31,871 nt of DNA from a virus: IMG/VR virus record IMGVR_UViG_3300008261_000241, positions 1 through 31,871 of that record; one strand, 5' to 3'. Positions 5,964 through 31,626 of this stretch are shown here, in pieces. The notes under the pieces were generated by a model. That model saw nothing but the letters and a program-made list of their open reading frames with translations, searched no databases and was not told the origin of the DNA. Positions within the stretch are counted from its first letter, which is position 1, and each line of letters starts with the position of its first letter. A program made the translations under genes and the position numbers.

Positions 5964-5990
5964 AAAACGGACCGTAAGGTCCGTTTTTTT
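5964..5990. terminator. Bidirectional Rho-independent terminator
   Basis: AAAACGGACC-GTAA-GGTCCGTTTT forms a 10-bp stem with a 4-nt loop, followed by a T run on plus (to 5991). On minus the stem is followed by TTTTTAT. It therefore ends both the gp19 transcript and the convergent minus-strand sugar cassette. Confidence 0.9.
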
Positions 5991-6925
5991 TAATCTAAAA
6001 TCTGCATCTGTGCATTATGGGTCTTGCCCTTACCATTAAGTATTTCATTAAGATAAAAAGTAAGTTGATGTAGCTCTTCCCTACTGTAATGAAAATACCT
6101 GCAAGGAAATCCAATGACATGCATCAGATAACTATCACTTGGTCTATGACTTAAACTTAAGAATGCTTGATTAGGATTTGCTATATTTTCTCTTACATGA
6201 GAAAACATAAAAGGCCCGCTATTTTTTCCAACTATAAGCTCTGCTTTAGTTGATAAAAATCCTATCTCGTTAAGGTCACCTCCTTCTACTTCTGCAAATA
6301 TATCATCTGTAAAATATATATTAGATGTATAAGGAAACCACTCGGTACTAAATTTTGTAGTACACACAAATGAAACATCGGGATGAATCTGTGCTAGATT
6401 TTTTATAATCTCTCCCATGGTGCCTAATTGACTTTGAGAACTTTGTGCTATTCCATTACAAAATAAAGCTATACGTCCTTTACCTTCAAGCCATGCCAAT
6501 GCAGGCGCAATATTAAATTTTGACCAATCTGTGGTAGGTATAAGTGCAAATAAGTTAGTAGTATGTTCAATTGGCCTATCTAGATACCATGCTACTCTGT
6601 CGTAGATATACATCCACATTCTATTGAGCATTGGGTAGTTTGCGTGTTCCTCATTAGGAAACATAAAATCTTTATACCCTCCAACCCAGGTGTTAATGTA
6701 GATGGTATCCTCTGATGCAGAAACTCTATGAGAATCTGTTACAGGTATTTGATCAATAGGTAAGTGCGTGAACGGCATATCTCCCATAGTTTTAATCTTA
6801 TTAACCTGTGAATGTGAGAATTCAATATCAGGTAGTTGTCGAATTAAATCTTGCATATAACCTTTACCGGAGAACACATCTCCGTTATGCCACCTATTAT
6901 AAAAACAAATTTTATTGATAGTCAT
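5990..6925 (-). CDS. Putative glycosyltransferase (GT-B/heptosyltransferase-like)
   Basis: 311 residues, last gene of the sugar cassette. The N-terminal segment ICFYNRWHNGDVFSGKGYMQ followed by DLIRQLPDIEF resembles the start of GT-B type enzymes of LPS clusters. The second half has a Rossmann-like pattern (GRIALFCNGIAQ, then DVSFVCTTKF) and ELIVGKNSGPFMFSH, similar to the conserved 'visible in a donor pocket' loop of family 9-like enzymes. Substrate and acceptor cannot be read from the sequence. It overlaps the upstream gene by TAATG-type coupling. A non-catalytic sugar-binding role cannot be excluded. Confidence 0.5.
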   Translation of the reverse strand: MTINKICFYNRWHNGDVFSGKGYMQDLIRQLPDIEFSHSQVNKIKTMGDMPFTHLPIDQIPVTDSHRVSASEDTIYINTWVGGYKDFMFPNEEHANYPMLNRMWMYIYDRVAWYLDRPIEHTTNLFALIPTTDWSKFNIAPALAWLEGKGRIALFCNGIAQSSQSQLGTMGEIIKNLAQIHPDVSFVCTTKFSTEWFPYTSNIYFTDDIFAEVEGGDLNEIGFLSTKAELIVGKNSGPFMFSHVRENIANPNQAFLSLSHRPSDSYLMHVIGFPCRYFHYSREELHQLTFYLNEILNGKGKTHNAQMQILD

Positions 6926-7299
6926 TAGTATATTTTTTCCTCAACAATGTGGCTATTAGTAAGTTCATTAATTTGTCTTTTCACCACTGCTCGTTTATCA
7001 TTATAAATGTAAACAGACCTAGCAAGGTCGATAAACTCCTGATCAAATAATTTTGATTTTTCTTTAATACGTATGTCGTCTTCAATTTGCCAAATAATTT
7101 CATTAATACATTTTAGTTCTAATGACAAATTTCTAATTATTATTGTATCTAAATTAAGCAACTCTGAAAGTTCGTCGAGCTCTTTAGTAATGTTTTGTAT
7201 TTTACCTGTGTCTGACGTGTGATCTAATTTTATCGATAAGATTGTAATTTTATCAATTAACTCTCCTACACTTATTGGAGCCAAAATGCGACTAGACAT
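6925..7299 (-). CDS. DUF6165-like protein of polysaccharide clusters
   Basis: 124 residues, mostly helical. The N-terminal APISVGELIDKITILSIKLD, the central INEIIWQIEDDIRIKE and the ARSVYIYNDKRAVVKRQIN segment followed by a C-terminal IVEEKIY match a small family I recall from LPS and capsule gene clusters (DUF6165). No catalytic motif is visible. The start and stop codons overlap those of both neighbours by one base, so it is made in fixed proportion with the dehydratase and the glycosyltransferase-like protein, and may assist the latter. Confidence 0.6.
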   Translation of the reverse strand: MSSRILAPISVGELIDKITILSIKLDHTSDTGKIQNITKELDELSELLNLDTIIIRNLSLELKCINEIIWQIEDDIRIKEKSKLFDQEFIDLARSVYIYNDKRAVVKRQINELTNSHIVEEKIY

Positions 7300-8465
7300 T
7301 AAATTTCTCCTAGTGTTTTAGCTAGCCATTCTAAATCTTTTTTGGTAACAAAGTGACTATTACCTATATAGACACCATTGTCGTTTAGTAGATCTACATT
7401 TGCATTTTTACGGGGAGTACCAAACTTGTAACCTTTAAGGAAGGGTTGACGTAGCAGGTTGCCTCCTACAATAGGACGATGTTCAACGCCGTTGTCATCA
7501 AACACTTTTTTCATTTTTTTAGTAAGTTCTGGATTTTTACAAATGAACGGAAATGCAAAATTACTGTTATGTATATTATGATCAACAGGATAAAATTTGT
7601 CTTTATGATCGTCCATGATTTTAACAAATTCTTTAAAATTCTGTCGACGCTGGTCAATCATATCGTCAAGGCGAGTAAGTTGACTTAATCCTAATACTGC
7701 ATTAAAGTCGCTACTGCGAAAATTATATCCATCTGTCATGAACAAGAACTGTGGATGTATTTCTGGATACTGGTCAGCATACTTTTTCAAGTTGCCTGAC
7801 TCACGTGCTAGTCCATGACTACGTTTCATACGCATGAGTTCGTATAGTTCGCTGTCATTTACGTTAACCATACCACCTTCAATTGTAGTCATATGGTGGC
7901 CAAAATAAAAGCTAAAACTTGCCGCAACACTATTTGCGCCAACTTTATAACCGTTAATATCTAAACATCCGTGAGACTCGCAAACGTCATCTAGGATAAC
8001 TGCATCAGGAAATATCTCTTGATATAGATTATTATCTGCAGGAAACCCTAACAGATGTGTTACAAACACAATTTTAATATCTGGGTGTTTTTCTTTAATT
8101 TCTTTCATGTGTTCAATATCAAAACTAAAATTTTGTAAATTGACATCACAAAAAATTGGTTTGAAGCCTAACTGAAACACTGGACTAATGTTAGTGACCC
8201 AGGTACATGCCGGAACAAGCACCTTATCACCATCTTTAAATCCGTATTTTTCTTTAACGGCCGCCATGATTAAACTATTAGCAGTGCTACCCGAACTAAC
8301 CATTAACGCATGTTTGCTTCCTACCCATTGAGCCCATTGGTCTTCAAATTCTCGAACACGTGGTCCGTTTGTGTAGCGATCACTAGTAAGTAAAAACTTT
8401 ATCATCTCATATTTGTCACCCCAGGTAACAGCATTTTTCATTAAAGGCCAGCGTGATTGTTTCAT
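7299..8465 (-). CDS. colD: ColD-like GDP-4-keto-6-deoxymannose 3-dehydratase (PLP fold)
   Basis: 388 residues, DegT/DnrJ/EryC1 aminotransferase fold: cofactor phosphate loop SSGSTANS (about 57-64), Asp159/160 in ILDDVCESHG contacting the pyridine ring, and the signature SFYFGHHMTTIEGG (185-198). At the position of the usual PLP-binding lysine (SFxxxKxxT type) the residue is His190. The same Lys-to-His replacement defines E. coli ColD (about 388 residues), a dehydratase that removes the 3-hydroxyl of GDP-4-keto-6-deoxymannose. That substrate is exactly the product of the adjacent gmd gene. The likely product leads toward colitose or a related 3,6-dideoxysugar; a ColC-type finishing enzyme is not in the window. 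Coupled by ATGA to the upstream gene. Confidence 0.8.
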   Translation of the reverse strand: MKQSRWPLMKNAVTWGDKYEMIKFLLTSDRYTNGPRVREFEDQWAQWVGSKHALMVSSGSTANSLIMAAVKEKYGFKDGDKVLVPACTWVTNISPVFQLGFKPIFCDVNLQNFSFDIEHMKEIKEKHPDIKIVFVTHLLGFPADNNLYQEIFPDAVILDDVCESHGCLDINGYKVGANSVAASFSFYFGHHMTTIEGGMVNVNDSELYELMRMKRSHGLARESGNLKKYADQYPEIHPQFLFMTDGYNFRSSDFNAVLGLSQLTRLDDMIDQRRQNFKEFVKIMDDHKDKFYPVDHNIHNSNFAFPFICKNPELTKKMKKVFDDNGVEHRPIVGGNLLRQPFLKGYKFGTPRKNANVDLLNDNGVYIGNSHFVTKKDLEWLAKTLGEI

Positions 8466-9247
8466 AGTTTTCTTTCGATGTCTTCTTCAGAACATTCTTC
8501 TCCGTATTGTATTTCTATTAGTTGTAATGGTTGATCTGTTTCATTACACAGGTGATGCCACTCATTAAGTCCTATCCAAATAGGTTCGTGTTGATTAAAC
8601 GTGCCTATTAATTCTAGATCTGTAGTAATTGAACTTAAGGTGTAAACAGTTGCAATTCCTTCTGCAACAAACCAGAACTCTTTTCTTTTTGCATGTCGTT
8701 GCATACTTAAACTCTTACCAGGCATGACTGTAAGTTCTTTAAGTTTAAGTTGAGTTTCTGTTTCCATGCCGCGTTCGTATAACAGTCTAAAATGCCCCCA
8801 AGGTCTGTCAGTCTGCGGATGTTTCCATTCGCTTAAAATCCAGCGGCTACTATTTTGTTTCCAGTCTCCACCTACACCAAATTGAAAAGACAAATTTGGA
8901 TCACTAGCAAACATTTCTTGTTCAGGAACGTTAGCAGTGTTTCTATCACCGCCATTTGCAAATACAATGTGTGCGTCTGGATACATTGCTCTCACTTGTG
9001 TTATACCGTCAGCTCCAGTACCATCTTCGTCATTAAGATGTAACACTTGATAAACACATTCTAAATTTTCAATAATAGCAGAACGTTCTGAAAACGGCAT
9101 AAACGCTCTACCTTTTTTCCTCTTTAACCAATCGTCTGAGTTAAGACCCACAATTAAAATATCTCCTAACTGCGAAGCAGAATTAAGATAAGATAAATGT
9201 CCAGAATGGACTGGGTCAAACCCGCCGGTACATACAACTATTTTCAT
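8462..9247 (-). CDS. Nucleotidyltransferase-cupin (phosphomannose isomerase type II-like) fusion
   Basis: 261 residues with two parts. Residues 1-140 are an HxGH-class nucleotidyltransferase: [10 protein letters not shown] with H14-S-G-H17, [19 protein letters not shown], and the FANGGDR loop at about 96-102. Residues 145-261 match the cupin seen at the C-terminus of ManC/type II phosphomannose isomerases: RPWGHFRLL, then [20 protein letters not shown] with metal-ligand-type His, and [14 protein letters not shown]. It could activate a sugar phosphate and isomerise or bind a mannose phosphate, feeding the GDP-mannose route, but the exact substrate and nucleotide are unknown. ATGA overlaps couple it to both neighbours. 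Confidence 0.75.
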
Positions 9248-10272
9248 AAAGATAATCCTTTTTTGCTATCATTAAAGCACATATCTGCTACAAGACCTTC
9301 TAACCCAAATACAGGGTTCCAACCTAATACAGTTCTTGCCTTGGTGCTGTCACCTAATAAGGTATTAACATCAGCAGGCCTATAAAATTCTTCGCTTACT
9401 GCAAATAAAACTTTACCCGTATCAACATCTATACAGTGTTCATTTAATCCGCTGCCGCGCCACTCAACATTACATCCAAACCATTTAGCAGACATTGTAC
9501 AAAATTCTCGTACAGTAGTTTGTATACCCGTTGCTAACACATAATCACCTGGAGTGTCTTGTTGTAACATTAACCACATGCCTTCTACAAAATCTTTTGC
9601 ATGACCCCAATCACGTAAGGAATCAATGTTGCCTAACTTTACAGGCTCTTGAGATTCACCTGATAAGATTTTAGCAAGCCCTTTAGTAATTTTGCGTGTG
9701 ACAAAAGTTTCACCGCGCCGTGGACTTTCGTGATTAAACAATATTCCGTTGCTGGCATGTAATCCGTAACTTTCTCTATAGTTTACGGTAATCCAATAAC
9801 CATAGAGTTTTGCAACTCCGTAAGGACTACGAGGATAGAACGGCGTAGTTTCTTTCTGCGGAACTTCTTGAACAGAACCGTACATCTCGCTTGTACTGGC
9901 CTGATAAAATTTTACTTTATGACCAGTATCATGTAATGCTCGAACTGCCTCTAACATATGGAGAACTCCGATGGCATTAGTTTCTGCTGTGAATTGCGGA
10001 ACTTGGAAACTTACGTGTACATGACTTTGTGCCGCCAAATTATAAACTTCGTCTGGTTTAATTTTTAGAAGAATATTCCGAAGATTTGTACTGTCTGTTA
10101 GATCACTATAATGTAATGTAACTCGATTTCTAAATGTTGAAATATTTGGTATGTTTTCAAAATTTGAATTTCGTCTAACTAACCCGTGGACTTCGTAACC
10201 TTTGTCCAAAAGTAACTCAGCCAAATAAGATCCATCTTGTCCAGTGATGCCAGTAATAAGTGCTATTTTCAT
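9244..10272 (-). CDS. gmd: GDP-mannose 4,6-dehydratase
   Basis: 342 residues, full length for the family. It converts GDP-mannose to GDP-4-keto-6-deoxymannose. The short-chain dehydrogenase NADP site is TGITGQDG (7-14); the catalytic set is T127/S128-E129 in ASTSEMYG and Y151-x3-K155 in [10 protein letters not shown]. The segment [17 protein letters not shown] and [20 protein letters not shown] are hallmark GMD stretches. First gene of the minus-strand cassette, preceded by a late-type promoter motif at 10294. A similar enzyme (GDP-fucose or perosamine route) shares this step, so the final sugar depends on the ColD-like neighbour. Confidence 0.93.
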
Positions 10273-22165: not shown

Positions 22166-22222
22166 AGTCAGTTGGCTTTAAAGAAGAGGCATAATATAAA
22201 ACATTTATTAAGGAAAAACATT

Positions 22223-23203
22223 ATGGCAACTTTAGCAGAAATCCGCGCAAAACTTCAAGCATCATCTCAACAAAACACCGGCAGCGCAAGCGGTGGAGAC
22301 AACGCAATTTATCCCCATTGGAACATTCAAGAAGGCACTAGTGCAACAGTACGATTCCTTCCAGATGGCGATCCAAATAACACTTTTTTCTGGATCGAAC
22401 GTGCAATGATCAAATTGCCATTCGCTGGCATTAAAGGTGAAACAAATTCCAAACCCGTTACTGTACAAGTTCCTTGTATGGAAATGTGGGGCGAAACTTG
22501 TCCAGTTCTTACTGAAGTGCGTCCTTGGTTTAAGGATAAGTCTTTGGAAGATATGGGTCGTAAGTACTGGAAGAAAAAGTCATACCTGTTCCAAGGCTTT
22601 GTTGTTGACAGCAAGCTTCAAGAAGAAGGTAAAACTCCAGAAAATCCAATCCGTAGATTCATTATTGGTAGCCAAATTTTTAACATTGTTAAGAATGCGC
22701 TGTTGGATCCTGAGATCGAAGAAACACCAACAGACTATGTCCGTGGTTTAGACTTTAAGATCACAAAAACAAGTAAAGGTGGTTATGCTGACTACAGTAC
22801 TTCTAACTGGGCTCGTCGTGAGCGTTCGTTAGGTGCTGAAGAAGCAGCCGCGATTGAACAGTATGGATTGTTTAGTCTAAAAGACTTCCTGCCTAAAAAG
22901 CCAGGCGAAGTTGAACTCAAAGTTATTGCAGAAATGTTTGCGGCATCAGTAGACGGCGAAGCATATGATCCAGAACGTTGGGGACAATATTTCAAGCCAG
23001 CAGGCTTTAATTCTGGTAATTCTAATGCATCGTCAGAAAGCAAATCTGCTCCAGCAAAAGCTGTTAGCAAGCCCGTAGAAACTGATGCTGAAGAAGATGC
23101 TCCGTTTGACACAACTCCTGCAGAGGCTGCACCAGCAACTTCTGAAGCAAGTGGACGTGCGGCAGACATCCTTGCGATGATTCGTAACCGTCAAAAATCT
23201 TAA
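22223..23203 (+). CDS. gp32: Single-stranded DNA-binding protein gp32
   Basis: 326 residues; T4 gp32 has 301. It coats single-stranded DNA in replication, recombination and repair. The N-terminal basic helix and the OB-fold region are seen in ATVRFLPDGDPNNTFFWIER and GRKYWKKKSYLFQGFVVDSK with QIFNIVKNALLDPEIEETPT. Of the T4 zinc ligands (one His, three Cys) only C85 and C93 in PCMEMWGETCPV are evident, so zinc binding may differ. The acidic stretch ETDAEEDAPFD precedes a basic end, AADILAMIRNRQKS. The ATG at 22223 has AAGGA upstream; an earlier ATG at 22172 lacks one. Confidence 0.93.
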   Translation: MATLAEIRAKLQASSQQNTGSASGGDNAIYPHWNIQEGTSATVRFLPDGDPNNTFFWIERAMIKLPFAGIKGETNSKPVTVQVPCMEMWGETCPVLTEVRPWFKDKSLEDMGRKYWKKKSYLFQGFVVDSKLQEEGKTPENPIRRFIIGSQIFNIVKNALLDPEIEETPTDYVRGLDFKITKTSKGGYADYSTSNWARRERSLGAEEAAAIEQYGLFSLKDFLPKKPGEVELKVIAEMFAASVDGEAYDPERWGQYFKPAGFNSGNSNASSESKSAPAKAVSKPVETDAEEDAPFDTTPAEAAPATSEASGRAADILAMIRNRQKS

Positions 23204-23216
23204 TTAGGAGATAGAC

Positions 23217-24278
23217 ATGGGAAAGGCCTTCGATATTTCGAAGTTCCGCAAGTCTATCACTAAAAGTATTGATGGCTTGGGAATTGGTTTCAATGATCCA
23301 ACAGACTGGATCAGCACTGGCAACTATGCCCTTAACTATCTTATCTCAGGGGACTTCTTTAAGGGAGTTCCCCTTGGTAAGGTAACGGTATTTGCTGGAG
23401 AATCTGGTGCAGGTAAATCATATATCTGTTCCGGTAACATTATTAAAGCCGCACAAGAACAAGGAATTTTTGTTGTACTAGTTGACAGCGAAAACGCCCT
23501 TGATAAGGCATGGCTTGAAGCATTAGGTGTTGATATTTCAGAAGAAAAACTTTTGAAACTTAACATGGCTATGATCGACGACGTGGCAAAAACCATTTCA
23601 GAATTCATGAAAGAATATAAATCAATGCCGCAGGAAGAACGTCCTAAAGTATTGTTTGTAATCGATTCACTTGGCATGTTGCTTACTCCAACTGACGTTA
23701 ATCAGTTCGAAGCAGGTGAAATGAAAGGTGACATGGGTCGTAAACCTAAAGCACTTACATCACTTGTTCGCAACTGTGTGAATATGTTCGGCTCTTACAA
23801 CGTAGGTATGGTCTGTACAAATCACACATACGCAAGCCAGGATATGTTTGATCCAGATGACAAAATTTCAGGCGGTCAAGGCTTCATTTACGCAAGTTCA
23901 ATTGTTGTTGCAATGCGTAAACTTAAACTTAAGACAGATGAAAACGGTAACAAGGTAACAGATGTTCTAGGTATTCGTTCTGCATGTAAAATCATGAAGA
24001 CACGTTATGCTAAACCATTTGAAAGTGTACAAGTTGAAATTCCATATTCAACAGGTATGGCTCCGAGCTCCGGTTTAGTTGACATGTTCGAGAAAATGGG
24101 TGTATTATCTAAAGTCGGAAATAAATTAGCCTATACTAGTAAAGATAGTGGCGAAATTATTGCAGAGTTCAGAAAAAACTGGACTGAAGATAAATTAAAG
24201 TTAATTATGAACGAGTGGGACAGTAGTTCTGTACCAGCGATCACAACCATTGACGAATCGGAGGAAGCTAATGGATGA
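23217..24278 (+). CDS. uvsX: Recombinase UvsX (RecA family)
   Basis: 353 residues; T4 UvsX has 391. It pairs gp32-coated DNA for recombination-dependent replication and repair. The P-loop is GESGAGKS (61-68), with VVLVDSENALDKAWLEALGV following, VLFVIDSLGMLLT as Walker B, and MKGDMGRKPKALTSLVRNCV, MVCTNHTYAS and ISGGQGFIYASSIVVAMRK as DNA-binding loop and core. The C-terminus is short and acidic (TTIDESEEANG). A perfect GGAGATAGAC-type Shine-Dalgarno precedes it and it lies 13 bases after gp32, so the pair is one operon. Confidence 0.95.
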   Translation: MGKAFDISKFRKSITKSIDGLGIGFNDPTDWISTGNYALNYLISGDFFKGVPLGKVTVFAGESGAGKSYICSGNIIKAAQEQGIFVVLVDSENALDKAWLEALGVDISEEKLLKLNMAMIDDVAKTISEFMKEYKSMPQEERPKVLFVIDSLGMLLTPTDVNQFEAGEMKGDMGRKPKALTSLVRNCVNMFGSYNVGMVCTNHTYASQDMFDPDDKISGGQGFIYASSIVVAMRKLKLKTDENGNKVTDVLGIRSACKIMKTRYAKPFESVQVEIPYSTGMAPSSGLVDMFEKMGVLSKVGNKLAYTSKDSGEIIAEFRKNWTEDKLKLIMNEWDSSSVPAITTIDESEEANG

Positions 24279-24518: not shown

Positions 24519-24977
24519 GTGTCACAATGGTATGCCAAGGTTAGCAAAGATATTTCATTTTTGCCTGCTTGTATTGACTATTTCTATGCCGAACTAGGGC
24601 AAGCCAGAGCTGAAGTTAAAATCTATGGTAACATAGAAAAAGCCAGTTCTGCTTTGCCTGGTGTAGTTGAACAACGTTTCAATAATCTTCAAGAAATTGA
24701 AGCTATCCTTGAATACCTTAACATTGAACTTCGACGTTTGAGGTCAAAATGCTTTAAGAAATACCTAGAAAACTATCAGAGAGCGTTAAGTTCCAGAGAT
24801 GTTGAAAAATACGTCGATGGAGAACCTGATGTAGTTGATATGGAAAAAATTATCAACGAATTTGCGCTATTAAGAAATCAGTGGTTAGGAGTTATTAAAG
24901 GTTTAGACATCAAACAATGGCAATTGAGTAATATTATAAAGTTAAGAACTGCGGGCCTAGAGGACGCATCACTTTAA
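24519..24977 (+). CDS. Recombination-block helical protein, perhaps UvsY-like mediator
   Basis: 152 residues, GTG start two bases after the upstream stop. Long helices dominate: LQEIEAILEYLNIELRRLRS, then FKKYLENYQRALSSRDVEKY and ALLRNQWLGVIKGLDIKQWQ. Its C-terminal half faintly parallels T4 UvsY (137 residues), a helper that loads UvsX on gp32-covered DNA, and the place between uvsX and uvsW fits. The similarity is a structural impression, not a clear motif match. A general virion or replication accessory protein is the alternative. Confidence 0.6.
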   Translation: MSQWYAKVSKDISFLPACIDYFYAELGQARAEVKIYGNIEKASSALPGVVEQRFNNLQEIEAILEYLNIELRRLRSKCFKKYLENYQRALSSRDVEKYVDGEPDVVDMEKIINEFALLRNQWLGVIKGLDIKQWQLSNIIKLRTAGLEDASL

Positions 24978-24986
24978 TGGATTGTT

Positions 24987-26204
24987 ATGTTTATAGAAGA
25001 CCTTATTCAACGACTAGCAGGTGACGGACAATGGCTCTTTACTGAGCCTGTTATACCTCTGCATCATCTAGACTCAAGCATAGTACATAGTCTATCTATG
25101 CAAACTGTGACTGGTTACGGTTTTACTGAAAAACAGGCCAGTTTGGCATTAAAACTAATCAAAAAATACCAAAATTCTCTCAATTCTGCCTTAAAAACTA
25201 ACATTTCTGACTCTATTGATAATCCCCAGTATAAACTACCTATTCGTGTATTATCGAATAATAGAACAATTACCATAAGGAAGAAAGAATTCATTAATCA
25301 ACAGGTAATTTCTGTAAGTTTTCCCTATGATGACGGATTAATACAGCTAATACGTGGGTACAAAGAATCCTTTAGTAAAGAGTCCTCTAACAATCAAACT
25401 GTAAACTGGAATCCTGACTTAAAATCATGGGATTTTAATTTACGTGAGGAACATATTGCATGGGTAGCTTCAAATCTTATGAATTCCTCATTTCATACAG
25501 ATGAAAAATTTTTAGATTTGTTGGCCCAGGTACGTGAAATTGAACAATCAATTGAAAAATATGTACCTATGGTAAATTTTGAAGAAAATAAATTTATTTT
25601 TACTAATGTTCCTAAAAATGTTCCGCAACCTGATAGCCTTGATGTAGTAGAAGTATTAATGCAGGCTAAAAAATACGGAATAAATTTGTGGGCCGACGAA
25701 ATTGGAGAAGTTTTAGATAATATTGATATTACTCCAGTTACAAAAAAATGTATTACTACACCGTTTGGTAAAGATATCGAAATTGATGGGAAAGAAGTTG
25801 AATTTAGTGATCTTTTAAACACACTAGGCTATAATTCTCCCACGTTGATTGTAATCCCCGGGGGAATGGAGTTAAAATATTTGAGATATTGCATTAGAAC
25901 TCTAATGAAATACGGTGTATCAACTGAAGAGATGAGTGTGTTATTTAGATTAGATGGTCATACAGGAAAAACAGCCAATGAAATCATTAAAGATTCAAAG
26001 GTTAACAATCCTATTTCTGAAAAAATTAAATTTTTCTTTGTTTCGGGTAGAATACCCAAGCCATTAATCGAATCGAAGATTGAAGTTTTGTCAGTTCTTA
26101 ATTTTGGTTTAAGTGGTGTTCATTATACATTGTCAAATTACCTAAAAAATCACCATTTTGTCGTAAATTATAAAATTAAGGAATCAGACTTTGCCGTCCT
26201 GTAA
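24987..26204 (+). CDS. Conserved protein between uvsX and uvsW, unknown
   Basis: 405 residues. N-terminal part: MFIEDLIQRLAGDGQWLFTE, then GYGFTEKQASLALKLIKKYQ, a helical segment. Near residues 137-155 the stretch WNPDLKSWDFNLREEHIAWV resembles the substrate-recognition strands of SNF2/HARP-type proteins. The C-terminal half is alpha/beta without P-loop (LIVIPGGMELKYLRYCIRTL, then FFFVSGRIPKPLI), perhaps a degenerate helicase-like domain. Location suggests work with UvsW in branched-DNA processing; this is inferred from place alone. It overlaps uvsW by 14 bases. Confidence 0.55.
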   Translation: MFIEDLIQRLAGDGQWLFTEPVIPLHHLDSSIVHSLSMQTVTGYGFTEKQASLALKLIKKYQNSLNSALKTNISDSIDNPQYKLPIRVLSNNRTITIRKKEFINQQVISVSFPYDDGLIQLIRGYKESFSKESSNNQTVNWNPDLKSWDFNLREEHIAWVASNLMNSSFHTDEKFLDLLAQVREIEQSIEKYVPMVNFEENKFIFTNVPKNVPQPDSLDVVEVLMQAKKYGINLWADEIGEVLDNIDITPVTKKCITTPFGKDIEIDGKEVEFSDLLNTLGYNSPTLIVIPGGMELKYLRYCIRTLMKYGVSTEEMSVLFRLDGHTGKTANEIIKDSKVNNPISEKIKFFFVSGRIPKPLIESKIEVLSVLNFGLSGVHYTLSNYLKNHHFVVNYKIKESDFAVL

Positions 26205-27642
26205 AATTATTATTAAAGACGAAGTTAACGTTAAGATAGAAAATTTAGATCTTGACACACGTAAGGCGCTGGTCAAGAAATTTAAGTACGAAGACCCCAC
26301 TGCAAGGTATCGTCCTGCCTATAAATTAGGGAGATGGGACGGTACTGTTTCATATTTTGGTCTAGGAGGAACAACCTACCTCAGTATGTTAGAGCAGGTC
26401 CTAGAAATTTTAGCCAATCGAAACTATCACATCGAATACGAAGATCGTAGGACTGCACCAGCCTTGGAATTTTCTGAAATTTCTGAGGATTTTTGGGGTG
26501 AAAAATGCTGGCCCAAAGGCCATAGGTTTGAAGACCAGCCTATTCGTTTGAGAGACGATCAAGTTGAAGTTGTTAATAATTTTCTAAAGAATCCGCAAGC
26601 ATTGCAAGAAGTTGCAACTGGCGCAGGTAAAACTATTATGACCGCAACTTTGGCAAAAATTGTGGAAAAATATGGCCGAAGTATTGTTATTGTTCCTAAC
26701 AAAAGTTTAGTTGAACAAACAGAAGAAGATTTTATCAATGTTGGATTAGACGTTGGTGTTTATTACGGCGATAGAAAAGACATAGGAAAAACACACACTA
26801 TTGCAACTTGGCAAAGTCTCAATATTTTAGACAAAAAATCCAAAAATGACGAAGAACTGTTAAGTCTAGCTGAATTTCTTGACGGAGTAAATTGTGTCAT
26901 TGTTGACGAAGTTCATATGGCTAAAGCGGAAGTCTTAAAAACGTTGCTTACTCATAATCTTTCAAACGCACCTATACGTTGGGGATTAACTGGGACTGTT
27001 CCAAAAGCTGATTTTGAGTTTCAGAGTTTACGTGCAAGTCTTGGCGAAGTAGTTGGTAGAGTAACTGCAAATGAGTTACAAGAAAAAGGAATCTTAAGTC
27101 AGTGTCATGTTAATGTTATACAGACAGCCGAATGGAAAGAATTTTCAAGTTACCCCGAAGAATTAAAATATTTGGTTACTGATTCTACACGTATGGAATG
27201 GATATCTAGTTTAATTACAGAAATTGCATTAACTGGCAATACATTAGTGTTAGTTGACCGGATTGAGTCTGGTAATTTTCTTATCGAAGGTCATCAGGAT
27301 AGAGTGTTTATTTCAGGCAAAGTAAAAACTAAAGATAGAAAAGACGAGTATGACGAAATTAAAACAAGTGACAATAAGACTATTGTGGCGACTTATGGTG
27401 TGGCCGCTGTGGGTATTAATATTCCTAGGATCTTTAATCTGGTTCTTCTGGAACCCGGAAAGAGCTTTACAAGGGTTATACAATCTATTGGAAGAGGTAT
27501 TAGGAAAGCCGAGGACAAAGACTTCGTCCAAATTTGGGACTTGACAGCATCAACAAAATATGCTAAAAAACACTTAACGGAAAGAAAAAAATTCTACAAA
27601 GAAGCACAGTATCCGTTTACAATAGAAAAGGTAAAATATTAA
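26191..27642 (+). CDS. uvsW: DNA/RNA helicase UvsW
   Basis: 483 residues; T4 UvsW has 503. It unwinds branched and R-loop structures and shifts phage replication from origin- to recombination-driven. The N-terminal fold is recognisable (KYEDPTARYRPAYKLGRWDG). Superfamily II motifs: ATGAGKT (142-148), D239-E-V-H242 (VDEVHM), GLTGTVPKA (motif III), YGVAAVGINIP (motif V) and QSIGRGIRKAEDKD (motif VI). It begins at TTG (26191), inside the upstream gene; no better ATG is near. The neighbouring downstream gene follows after two bases, so it is coupled. Confidence 0.93.
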   Translation: MPSCKIIIKDEVNVKIENLDLDTRKALVKKFKYEDPTARYRPAYKLGRWDGTVSYFGLGGTTYLSMLEQVLEILANRNYHIEYEDRRTAPALEFSEISEDFWGEKCWPKGHRFEDQPIRLRDDQVEVVNNFLKNPQALQEVATGAGKTIMTATLAKIVEKYGRSIVIVPNKSLVEQTEEDFINVGLDVGVYYGDRKDIGKTHTIATWQSLNILDKKSKNDEELLSLAEFLDGVNCVIVDEVHMAKAEVLKTLLTHNLSNAPIRWGLTGTVPKADFEFQSLRASLGEVVGRVTANELQEKGILSQCHVNVIQTAEWKEFSSYPEELKYLVTDSTRMEWISSLITEIALTGNTLVLVDRIESGNFLIEGHQDRVFISGKVKTKDRKDEYDEIKTSDNKTIVATYGVAAVGINIPRIFNLVLLEPGKSFTRVIQSIGRGIRKAEDKDFVQIWDLTASTKYAKKHLTERKKFYKEAQYPFTIEKVKY

Positions 27643-29307: not shown

Positions 29308-29591
29308 AATTCCGTAAAAAACCAGTAGTGATTGAAGCAGTTCAATTTATATACTCAACTGAAGGTATTGCTAACATTAAAGAATTCTGTGGCAGTGCGT
29401 TAGGTACTATTAAAAAAGCTCGACACCCTACAGCATTAGGTGAAGCAGAAATCGGTACGTTAGAAGATGGAGTACATTTAAAAGTACAACATATCGCCAC
29501 AGAGGGCGATTGGATTATTAAAGGAGTGCAAGGGGAATTTTATGCTTGCAAGCCGGATATTTTTGAAGCCACTTACGAATCTGTAGAATGA
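29304..29591 (+). CDS. PGDYG-type phage protein
   Basis: 95 residues. MKFRKKPVVIEAVQFIYSTE at the start and GDWIIKGVQGEFYACKPDIF-E-A-T-Y-E at the end match a widespread small phage family (PGDYG-type, known from many tailed phages). Function is unknown; the fold is probably a beta barrel. It overlaps both neighbours by ATGA-type junctions. Confidence 0.75.
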   Translation: MKFRKKPVVIEAVQFIYSTEGIANIKEFCGSALGTIKKARHPTALGEAEIGTLEDGVHLKVQHIATEGDWIIKGVQGEFYACKPDIFEATYESVE

Positions 29592-30283
29592 TACAATTGG
29601 CCGAACAACCATTTAACTGCGTCCATTGTAACAAGGCCTTTATGAAAGAAAAGACCTTGTATGCTCACATGTGTGAAAACAAAAGACGAGCAATGCAGAA
29701 AGATGAAAAGCGTGTTCAGGCAGGCATGATGGCCTTTAATAGATTCTTTAGACTCACTCAAGGTGCTAAAAAAGACAAGACCTATGATGATTTTATAAAG
29801 AGCCCTTACTATAATGCGTTTGTTAAGTTTGGATCTTTTATTAATAATGTCATGCCCATATATCCTGATAAGTTCATGGACTATGTTATTAAAAGCGGTG
29901 TTAAACTAGACCAATGGTGCAGAGACGAACTGTATGAGACTTATCTTTATGAGATGATAAAAACTGAACCAGTTGAAAGTGCAGTACAAAGATCTTTGCA
30001 AACAATGATGGAATGGGGCGATGTAAGTCAAGCACAGTTTAATCATTATTTCAATTATGTAAATTTAAATCGAGCAGTACACGATATAAGAAACGGAAAA
30101 ATCAGTCCTTGGTTATTACTCAATTGTGCATCAGGTAAAAAGATGTTAAATAATTTTAGCAATGAACAATTGGATTTAATTGCACCGGCATTTGATTTAC
30201 CGTTTTGGCTTAAAAAATTCAAACAGGTTCCTGCTGATATTATTTTAGTAAAAGAAATATGTGATGAGGCGGGAATAGAATGA
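29588..30283 (+). CDS. Zinc-finger-start protein, unknown
   Basis: 231 residues. The N-terminus holds a C2HC-like finger: C-x2-C-x12-H-x3-C in NCVHCNKAFMKEKTLYAHMC. The remainder is helical with many aromatics (SPYYNAFVKFGSFINNVMPI, then YPDKFMDYVIKSGVKLDQWC) and the acidic end VKEICDEAGIE. Related uncharacterised proteins occur in T4-like phages of marine hosts. The finger suggests contact with nucleic acid; nothing more can be inferred. Confidence 0.65.
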   Translation: MIQLAEQPFNCVHCNKAFMKEKTLYAHMCENKRRAMQKDEKRVQAGMMAFNRFFRLTQGAKKDKTYDDFIKSPYYNAFVKFGSFINNVMPIYPDKFMDYVIKSGVKLDQWCRDELYETYLYEMIKTEPVESAVQRSLQTMMEWGDVSQAQFNHYFNYVNLNRAVHDIRNGKISPWLLLNCASGKKMLNNFSNEQLDLIAPAFDLPFWLKKFKQVPADIILVKEICDEAGIE

Positions 30284-30666
30284 GTCAAGAAAATATAAGA
30301 CAGTTCTGCGAGCAACATCGAATCCGAGTTCTTGATACAAATAAAAGAGCACATCGTTATCAAAGAATTAACATGCAGTATTTTAGAGATCCTATGGATT
30401 TTAATAAAGTCTCCCTTGTAGATATTGTAAATGACAGCGAACCCTTGTATACTGTAGAGATTGCACAAAGTGAATTAGAACGTATTGCAGACTTTGAATC
30501 AGAAGTGTTTAACAATATGAGGAAGCAAGGGCATTACAGAATGTTTGAAACACTAATGGAACAAAAAGAACACGAAAAATATTTGAAAGACAAATATCCA
30601 GCAGTAAAGAAAGCCTACGAGCATTATAGTCTTATATTAAAACTAGCAGAGAGTGGAGAATTGTAA
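30280..30666 (+). CDS. Conserved small protein, unknown
   Basis: 128 residues, ATGA overlap with upstream gene. Basic N-terminus (CEQHRIRVLDTNKRAHRYQR), a mid-domain (FRDPMDFNKVSLVDIVNDSE) and a helical end (RKQGHYRMFETLMEQKEHEK). Shares its stop/start with the Pol III-like gene by one base, so the two products are probably made together. No recognised function. Confidence 0.65.
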   Translation: MSQENIRQFCEQHRIRVLDTNKRAHRYQRINMQYFRDPMDFNKVSLVDIVNDSEPLYTVEIAQSELERIADFESEVFNNMRKQGHYRMFETLMEQKEHEKYLKDKYPAVKKAYEHYSLILKLAESGEL

Positions 30667-31247
30667 TGCCAGATATTGACATCGACTTTGCTGATAGATC
30701 ACATGCACTTAATTTAATAAAGACTATTCCTGCATCAATACAAGATAAAGACGGAACTTTTAAAAAGCACAATACTGGAGTATATTGTACTGCTATTCCG
30801 TACAATCCATTAACTGGATTAAGTAGTATTGAATATAAAGAAGCAGAACAAAGAGGATATTTTAAAATTGATTTTTTAAATGTTGGTATGTATAGCGGCG
30901 TTAAAGATGAAGCACATCTTATTCAACTTATGGAGACTGAACCATTATGGGATCTACTAGAACAAGACGATTTTACCCAACTGCTGTTCCATGTGAATGG
31001 GCATGGGTCTATTCTGAGACAAAGCAAGCCAAAGTCTATAGAGCAATTGGCAGCGGTACTAGCAATGATCAGACCTGCGAAACGTTATCTGATTGGGAAA
31101 GACTGGACTACGGTGATGACGGAAGTTTGGACGAAACCAACGGGTGAAGAATATTATTTTAAAAAGGCTCATGCCATGGCCTATTCTGTTGCCATTGTTG
31201 TACAGATGAATTTAATCTGTGAAAATATCAGCTACGGATTTAGTTAA
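30666..31247 (+). CDS. Miniature DNA polymerase III alpha-like protein
   Basis: 193 residues; bacterial Pol III alpha has about 1,100-1,200. The start MPDIDIDFADR matches the PD-x-D-x-DF catalytic motif (D401 and D403 in E. coli), here D3 and D5; the third catalytic Asp is matched by D69 in FKIDFLNVGM (E. coli KFDFLGL, D555). Later segments HVNGHGSILRQSKPKSIEQL with AAVLAMIRPAKRY and FKKAHAMAYSVAIVVQMNL echo the Pol III finger/thumb motifs with ALFRPGP and NKSHSAAYA. The PHP, beta-binding and OB domains are missing, so the polymerase may be inactive, a primer-processing factor or a decoy. Stop/start overlap with the upstream gene. The trailing end overlaps the next gene by eight bases. Confidence 0.7.
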   Translation: MPDIDIDFADRSHALNLIKTIPASIQDKDGTFKKHNTGVYCTAIPYNPLTGLSSIEYKEAEQRGYFKIDFLNVGMYSGVKDEAHLIQLMETEPLWDLLEQDDFTQLLFHVNGHGSILRQSKPKSIEQLAAVLAMIRPAKRYLIGKDWTTVMTEVWTKPTGEEYYFKKAHAMAYSVAIVVQMNLICENISYGFS

Positions 31248-31626
31248 CTCTAAATTTTTTAGGATTTCTTACTAGCTGTATTGATTTTCGTTTAATACGT
31301 TTTTCTGCTATTTCTCCTAGGCTTACAGTGGGTCCAAAGAGAATCTCAACGTCTTTACTGTTAAATGTTTTAATAAACGGTCTAAAATCAATCATATCTA
31401 TTTTTAAAAAAATATTAATAGGAATCTTTCGATTGCTTTCCCACCACCAGACATCTCCGAGTTCTAAAAAAGGATTTTGCAGTCCAATAGATTTGATTAC
31501 AGCATAGTCGTACATGCTTGTTACTTGATTATCGTGATTGATAACAATACCTAAATATTCCGTGTCGTTACAACGGAGACAGGTCATAAAAGGATAGTTT
31601 GCTTGGAAGCTCTCGCTTGTAGTCAT
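31240..31626 (-). CDS. Conserved small protein of marine T4-like phages, unknown
   Basis: 128 residues. The segment YPFMTCLRCNDTEYLGIVIN holds one CxxC; LELGDVWWWESNRKIPINIF with three consecutive Trp is distinctive, and KRIKRKSIQLVRNPKK forms a basic end. Nearly the same sequence pattern is known to me from cyanophage genomes as an uncharacterised protein. The start at 31626 (MTTSESFQ) is supported by a perfect late promoter 38 bases upstream; a later Met (MTCLRC) is an alternative. Tail-to-tail overlap of eight bases with the Pol III-like gene. Confidence 0.75.
   Translation of the reverse strand: MTTSESFQANYPFMTCLRCNDTEYLGIVINHDNQVTSMYDYAVIKSIGLQNPFLELGDVWWWESNRKIPINIFLKIDMIDFRPFIKTFNSKDVEILFGPTVSLGEIAEKRIKRKSIQLVRNPKKFRVN

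Follow-up and report, generated by a model that had tools for sequence, protein, structure and literature searches.

The question raised by this locus is what purpose a protein of 193 residues, bearing the catalytic aspartates of bacterial Pol III alpha, can have in a T4-like phage, and whether such a protein can form a polymerase active site alone. The gene lies near the end of the window, i.e., the whole stretch of 31,871 nucleotides that was analysed, and its position and neighbours are collected in Table 1; its product is called the C half below. An earlier account made from the letters alone (the sequence-only reading) had proposed a stripped family C core.

Table 1. Features of the window around the polymerase-half gene and in the replication block.
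Feature	Position	Strand	Remarks
Putative C-terminal half of a split minimal Pol III alpha	30666..31247	+	193 aa; ATG at 30666, stop at 31247
GGAG, Shine-Dalgarno-like	30655..30658	+	8–11 bases 5' of ATG at 30666
Upstream neighbour gene, 128 aa	30280..30666	+	1-base overlap with start of polymerase half; no PHROG or Pfam match
Convergent small gene, phrog_11637	31240..31626	−	overlaps 3' end of polymerase half
phrog_11058 protein	29588..30283	+	flanking block
UvsW-type helicase	26191..27642	+	replication block
UvsY-like recombination mediator	24519..24977	+	replication block
UvsX recombinase	23217..24278	+	replication block
gp32-like ssDNA-binding protein	22172..23203	+	replication block

Sequence family, active site and predicted fold of the C half

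The single window protein gave no match in the PDB (phmmer), and Pfam alone remained below the cut-off; profiles and structure were therefore needed. The protein was matched by phrog_11778 ('DNA polymerase', E = 1.1e-65), and its homology to this family is, judged by sequence comparison, far above chance. Homologues of the C half were found in 63 annotated phage records and in more than 550 IMG/VR stretches; identity to the window copy: 34–53% (aligned cultured relatives), 53.8% (Atu_ph07), 79% (IMG/VR contig G001, a close relative).

The following motifs were located in the window protein: MPDIDIDF, with D3 and D5; HNTG (35–38); KIDFLNV, with the KxDF lysine K67 and with D69; IRPAK (135–139); FKKAHAxAY (165–173). 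Profile alignment to Taq: D3/D5/D69 – D463/D465/D618, K67 – K616; structural numbering: P2 – E. coli P400. These two alignments uphold the earlier assignment of D3, D5 and D69 as the catalytic Asp of family C, and the window protein carries all three in PDxDxDF and KxDF, by which membership of the family was judged. The echoes of the finger region were found to be real as well, IRPAK resembling YRPG and FKKAHAxAY resembling FNKSHAAAY, and in profile searches the credible PDB matches were Pol III alpha. Loss of the aspartates in close homologues was not seen: D3, D5, D7 and D69 are identical in 81/81 distinct C halves, as are K67, H35, G38, P45, R136, P137, K139, H169 and Y173.

An AlphaFold2 model of the C half was obtained with a mean pLDDT of 86.5 (the alignments for structure models were built from the window and IMG/VR rows); structure matches: residues 2–191 – E. 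coli alpha (2hnh) 400–784, Z 8.5, 172 residues; 5lew, Z 8.8 over 190 residues; residues 1–193 – Geobacillus PolC 971–1358, Z 8.3. All matches of rank 1–14 were family C polymerases and the best unrelated chain had Z 3.3; the Foldseek E-values were modest (best 2e-3). Structure prediction, the check proposed in the sequence-only reading, gave in this way a match over the full length to both Pol III alpha and PolC. In the model, the C half consists of the later portion of the palm together with a finger domain of reduced length. In alpha, the thumb is inserted between the second and the third catalytic Asp; the corresponding gap in the window protein (D5 to D69) is 64 residues, as stated earlier and confirmed on the translation of the ORF, a spacing that fits loss of the thumb, and without a thumb the enzyme may bind DNA poorly. 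The accessory domains are indeed absent: at a length of 193 residues and with an alignment to E. coli 400–784 only, there is no PHP, thumb or C-terminal beta-binding/OB domain.

A separate gene for the first part of the palm

The first residues of the window protein already belong to the catalytic strand; the palm half that carries the GS motif (GxGRGS) is hence missing from it. A search of complete relatives with PF07733 gave a second small gene, which matches only domain positions ~11–98, i.e., the first part. This N half (PHROG 11127, beside phrog_11778 for the C half) is a separate gene of ~170 aa, distant from the C half, and carries the GS motif, in which G, G, R, G and S are invariant. 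Its product stops 35–37 residues past the start of GxGRGS in 90/90 copies (in G001 it ends ...GVGRGSSVASYVLYLIGVHKIDSLKYNLDWREFLR-stop), and the C half begins exactly at MPDIDIDF in 80/89 loci. Model of the N half: pLDDT 90.7; residues 61–168 – E. coli alpha 273–393, Z 8.3–10; best unrelated match Z 2.5; the first ~60 residues lie outside the structural match. Both models have the Pol beta-like palm fold and match solved alpha in it, and the two halves tile one alpha chain (273–393 and 400–784), about six residues being lost at the cut. Median dN/dS (simple NG86 estimates, pairs with dS under 2) was 0.10 for the C half and 0.08 for the N half; both are under purifying selection. A check for Shine-Dalgarno-like motifs before the N half gave 0/90, the exact start of this gene being uncertain; it overlaps the preceding gene in Atu_ph07, RaK2 and PAC2. 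The N half also matched PHROGs 13169, 7513 and 11165, phage DnaE-like families of unusual size, which are perhaps other split or rearranged forms of Pol III.

The family C relationship given in the sequence-only reading thus stands, and the stand-alone core does not, the palm half with the GS motif being a second gene in 62 of the 63 phage records that contain the C half. The lone exception, PP728206, is an unverified record of 109.5 kb (other records of its genus here are ~346 kb), in which a profile search for the N half also gave no match. Both halves are present on the IMG/VR contigs G001, G002, G008 and G009 (181–383 kb); the one-half contigs that were checked are smaller (N half only, ≤213 kb; C half only, ≤148 kb). 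The distance between the halves ranges from 11 kb (Alishewanella phage Slicko01) to 182 kb (Atu_ph07) or more, and no fused form was found among 90 N-half and 89 C-half loci. A family B polymerase was found in every complete genome checked (W01–W08, W10, G001, G002).

In the window itself (31.9 kb) a search for the N half gave only a weak match (13 bits, 54 residues), rejected as a chance match on account of the absent GS motif. In Slicko01 (141 kb; OQ508956.1) the halves are at 67570–68181 (−) and 79023–79532 (−) with a clamp-loader gene between them, and a family B polymerase is also encoded; both halves were found in Slickus01 as well. They thus occur in 141-kb phages, below the usual jumbo limit.

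Proposed assembly and its alternatives

A split, two-subunit minimal family C enzyme is the preferred reading (probability about 0.8). The C half would be the catalytic-Asp and finger part of a polymerase of the Pol III alpha/PolC type, and the N half, encoded tens to hundreds of kb away, would supply the GS motif that grips the phosphates of the incoming nucleotide; the two chains most likely associate non-covalently and would so restore a single palm of the Pol beta-like type, to which short fingers are attached, with PHP, thumb, clamp-binding and OB domains all lacking. That the two halves bind each other and catalyse, and on what substrate and for what purpose, is what we infer here. The complex probably performs short DNA synthesis of low processivity beside the family B replicase of the phage, and primer extension or gap filling is put forward tentatively as its specific role. 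For the broader proposition of a working polymerase that forms one catalytic domain from two chains beside a family B replicase, and is possibly a surviving early Pol III, not a reduced one, the odds appear to be just short of even.

Since the Pol beta-like fold serves many nucleotidyltransferases that are not polymerases, the same pair might act without a template, or modify RNA ends, proteins or nucleotides instead of DNA; the loss of the thumb and of most DNA-binding parts and the presence of a family B replicase in the phage would agree with this. The two finger motifs (IRPAK, FKKAHAxAY), by which family C polymerases are characterised, are however (nearly) invariant, and both halves are housed in replication gene blocks, which makes such an activity unlikely.

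The ends of the two halves are exactly complementary, as might be expected if a split intein or RNA trans-splicing united them once they are expressed, and cyanobacterial DnaE, also encoded by two genes, can be rejoined by means of a split intein. The phage pair differs from it in size and in the split, and there is no room for an intein half at either end of the junction: the N half terminates too soon after its GS motif, and only 0–41 open residues (median 6) precede the motif of the C half. No intron or other Rfam family was found at 16 loci; in addition, translation of the C half can begin at a start codon of its own, and Shine-Dalgarno-like motifs lie 5' of it in 30/89 loci compared with 5% of random positions (about six times background). 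Joining is accordingly very improbable and, with neither intein room nor an Rfam match, non-covalent assembly is the simplest reading.

The decoy of the host polymerase suggested in the sequence-only reading, i.e., an inert scaffold that mimics the surface of host alpha and captures the host clamp, clamp loader or tau, would suit a small protein of a phage having its own polymerase, but is hardly credible in view of catalytic residues that are all invariant in 81 distinct sequences from distant phages and of the absence of the beta-binding, OB and tau-binding regions expected in a decoy (the alignment stops at E. coli 784).

Known relatives and gene neighbourhood

The phage pair shares with bacterial DnaE/Pol III alpha (E. 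coli 2hnh; Taq 2hpi, 3e0d) the catalytic Asp, the KxDF lysine, the finger motifs and the fold over the two tiled segments; it differs in having its palm in two chains and in lacking the PHP, thumb, beta-binding, OB and tau-binding parts. With PolC (Geobacillus, 3f2b) it shares the fold of palm and fingers; the exonuclease and OB domains are absent from the phage pair and the other differences are those from DnaE.

A split minimal Pol III alpha of the same family, consisting of two proteins from distant genes with a family B polymerase alongside, is described for jumbo phages of group 2.2 in passages of Iyer et al. 2021 (PMC7824862), where the split form is proposed to be an early form of bacterial Pol III. 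The window gene belongs to this kind, described already in 2021, and the arrangement is therefore not new; the window copy comes from a fragment of an uncultivated phage and is distinct from those of cultured relatives at the identities given above. Against these passages, in which split point and co-occurrence counts are absent, the following is new: the exact split point, the near-perfect co-occurrence, the invariance of the active site, purifying selection, the absence of a splicing device, and the finding of the N and C halves together in non-jumbo phages of 141 kb. A truncated alpha of 172 aa was noted in the CBB paper (PMC5259590), and the Atu_ph07 paper (PMC6102473) lists as Pol III alpha subunit gp316, which in the Atu_ph07 record is the N half. 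Outside subscription journals, the only literature found on the split form was Iyer et al. 2021, and no bench test was found. Genes of this kind are spread over hundreds of phage contigs; an active pair would constitute a family C polymerase of very small size (~360 residues, two chains, active site split within one domain) and would reveal what catalysis requires of Pol III alpha and for what reason two polymerases of unrelated families are retained in some T4-like phages.

The position claimed beforehand, on the replication side of a T4-like phage genome, was confirmed by the gp32/UvsW replication block of the window (Table 1). In annotated relatives the C half is flanked by UvsW on one side and by a primase/DnaB-type helicase on the other, and is followed by the convergent small gene, whose position did not vary among the annotated relatives viewed; the N half is found near a clamp-loader gene, which it precedes.

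Further observations in the window and related contigs: between UvsY and UvsW (24987–26204, +) a protein of 405 aa without PHROG or Pfam match is encoded, and a DnaQ-type exonuclease takes the corresponding position in RaK2 and in CBB. A contig (L001; 7398–8081, +) bears an identical polymerase half and continues into the primase and DnaB-type helicase, after which a small nucleotidyltransferase-like protein with a GSQANYNYTDLSDIDLHL motif is found. Sugar-metabolism-like genes (epimerase/dehydratase, cytidylyltransferase and aminotransferase-like, named from the sequence only) lie inside the T4-like tail genes of the window (5990–10272, −). Between the gp1-like and sheath genes, an ORF (1529–1969, −) has, as read from the sequence only, a zinc-finger/HNH-like cysteine pattern and possibly encodes a homing endonuclease.
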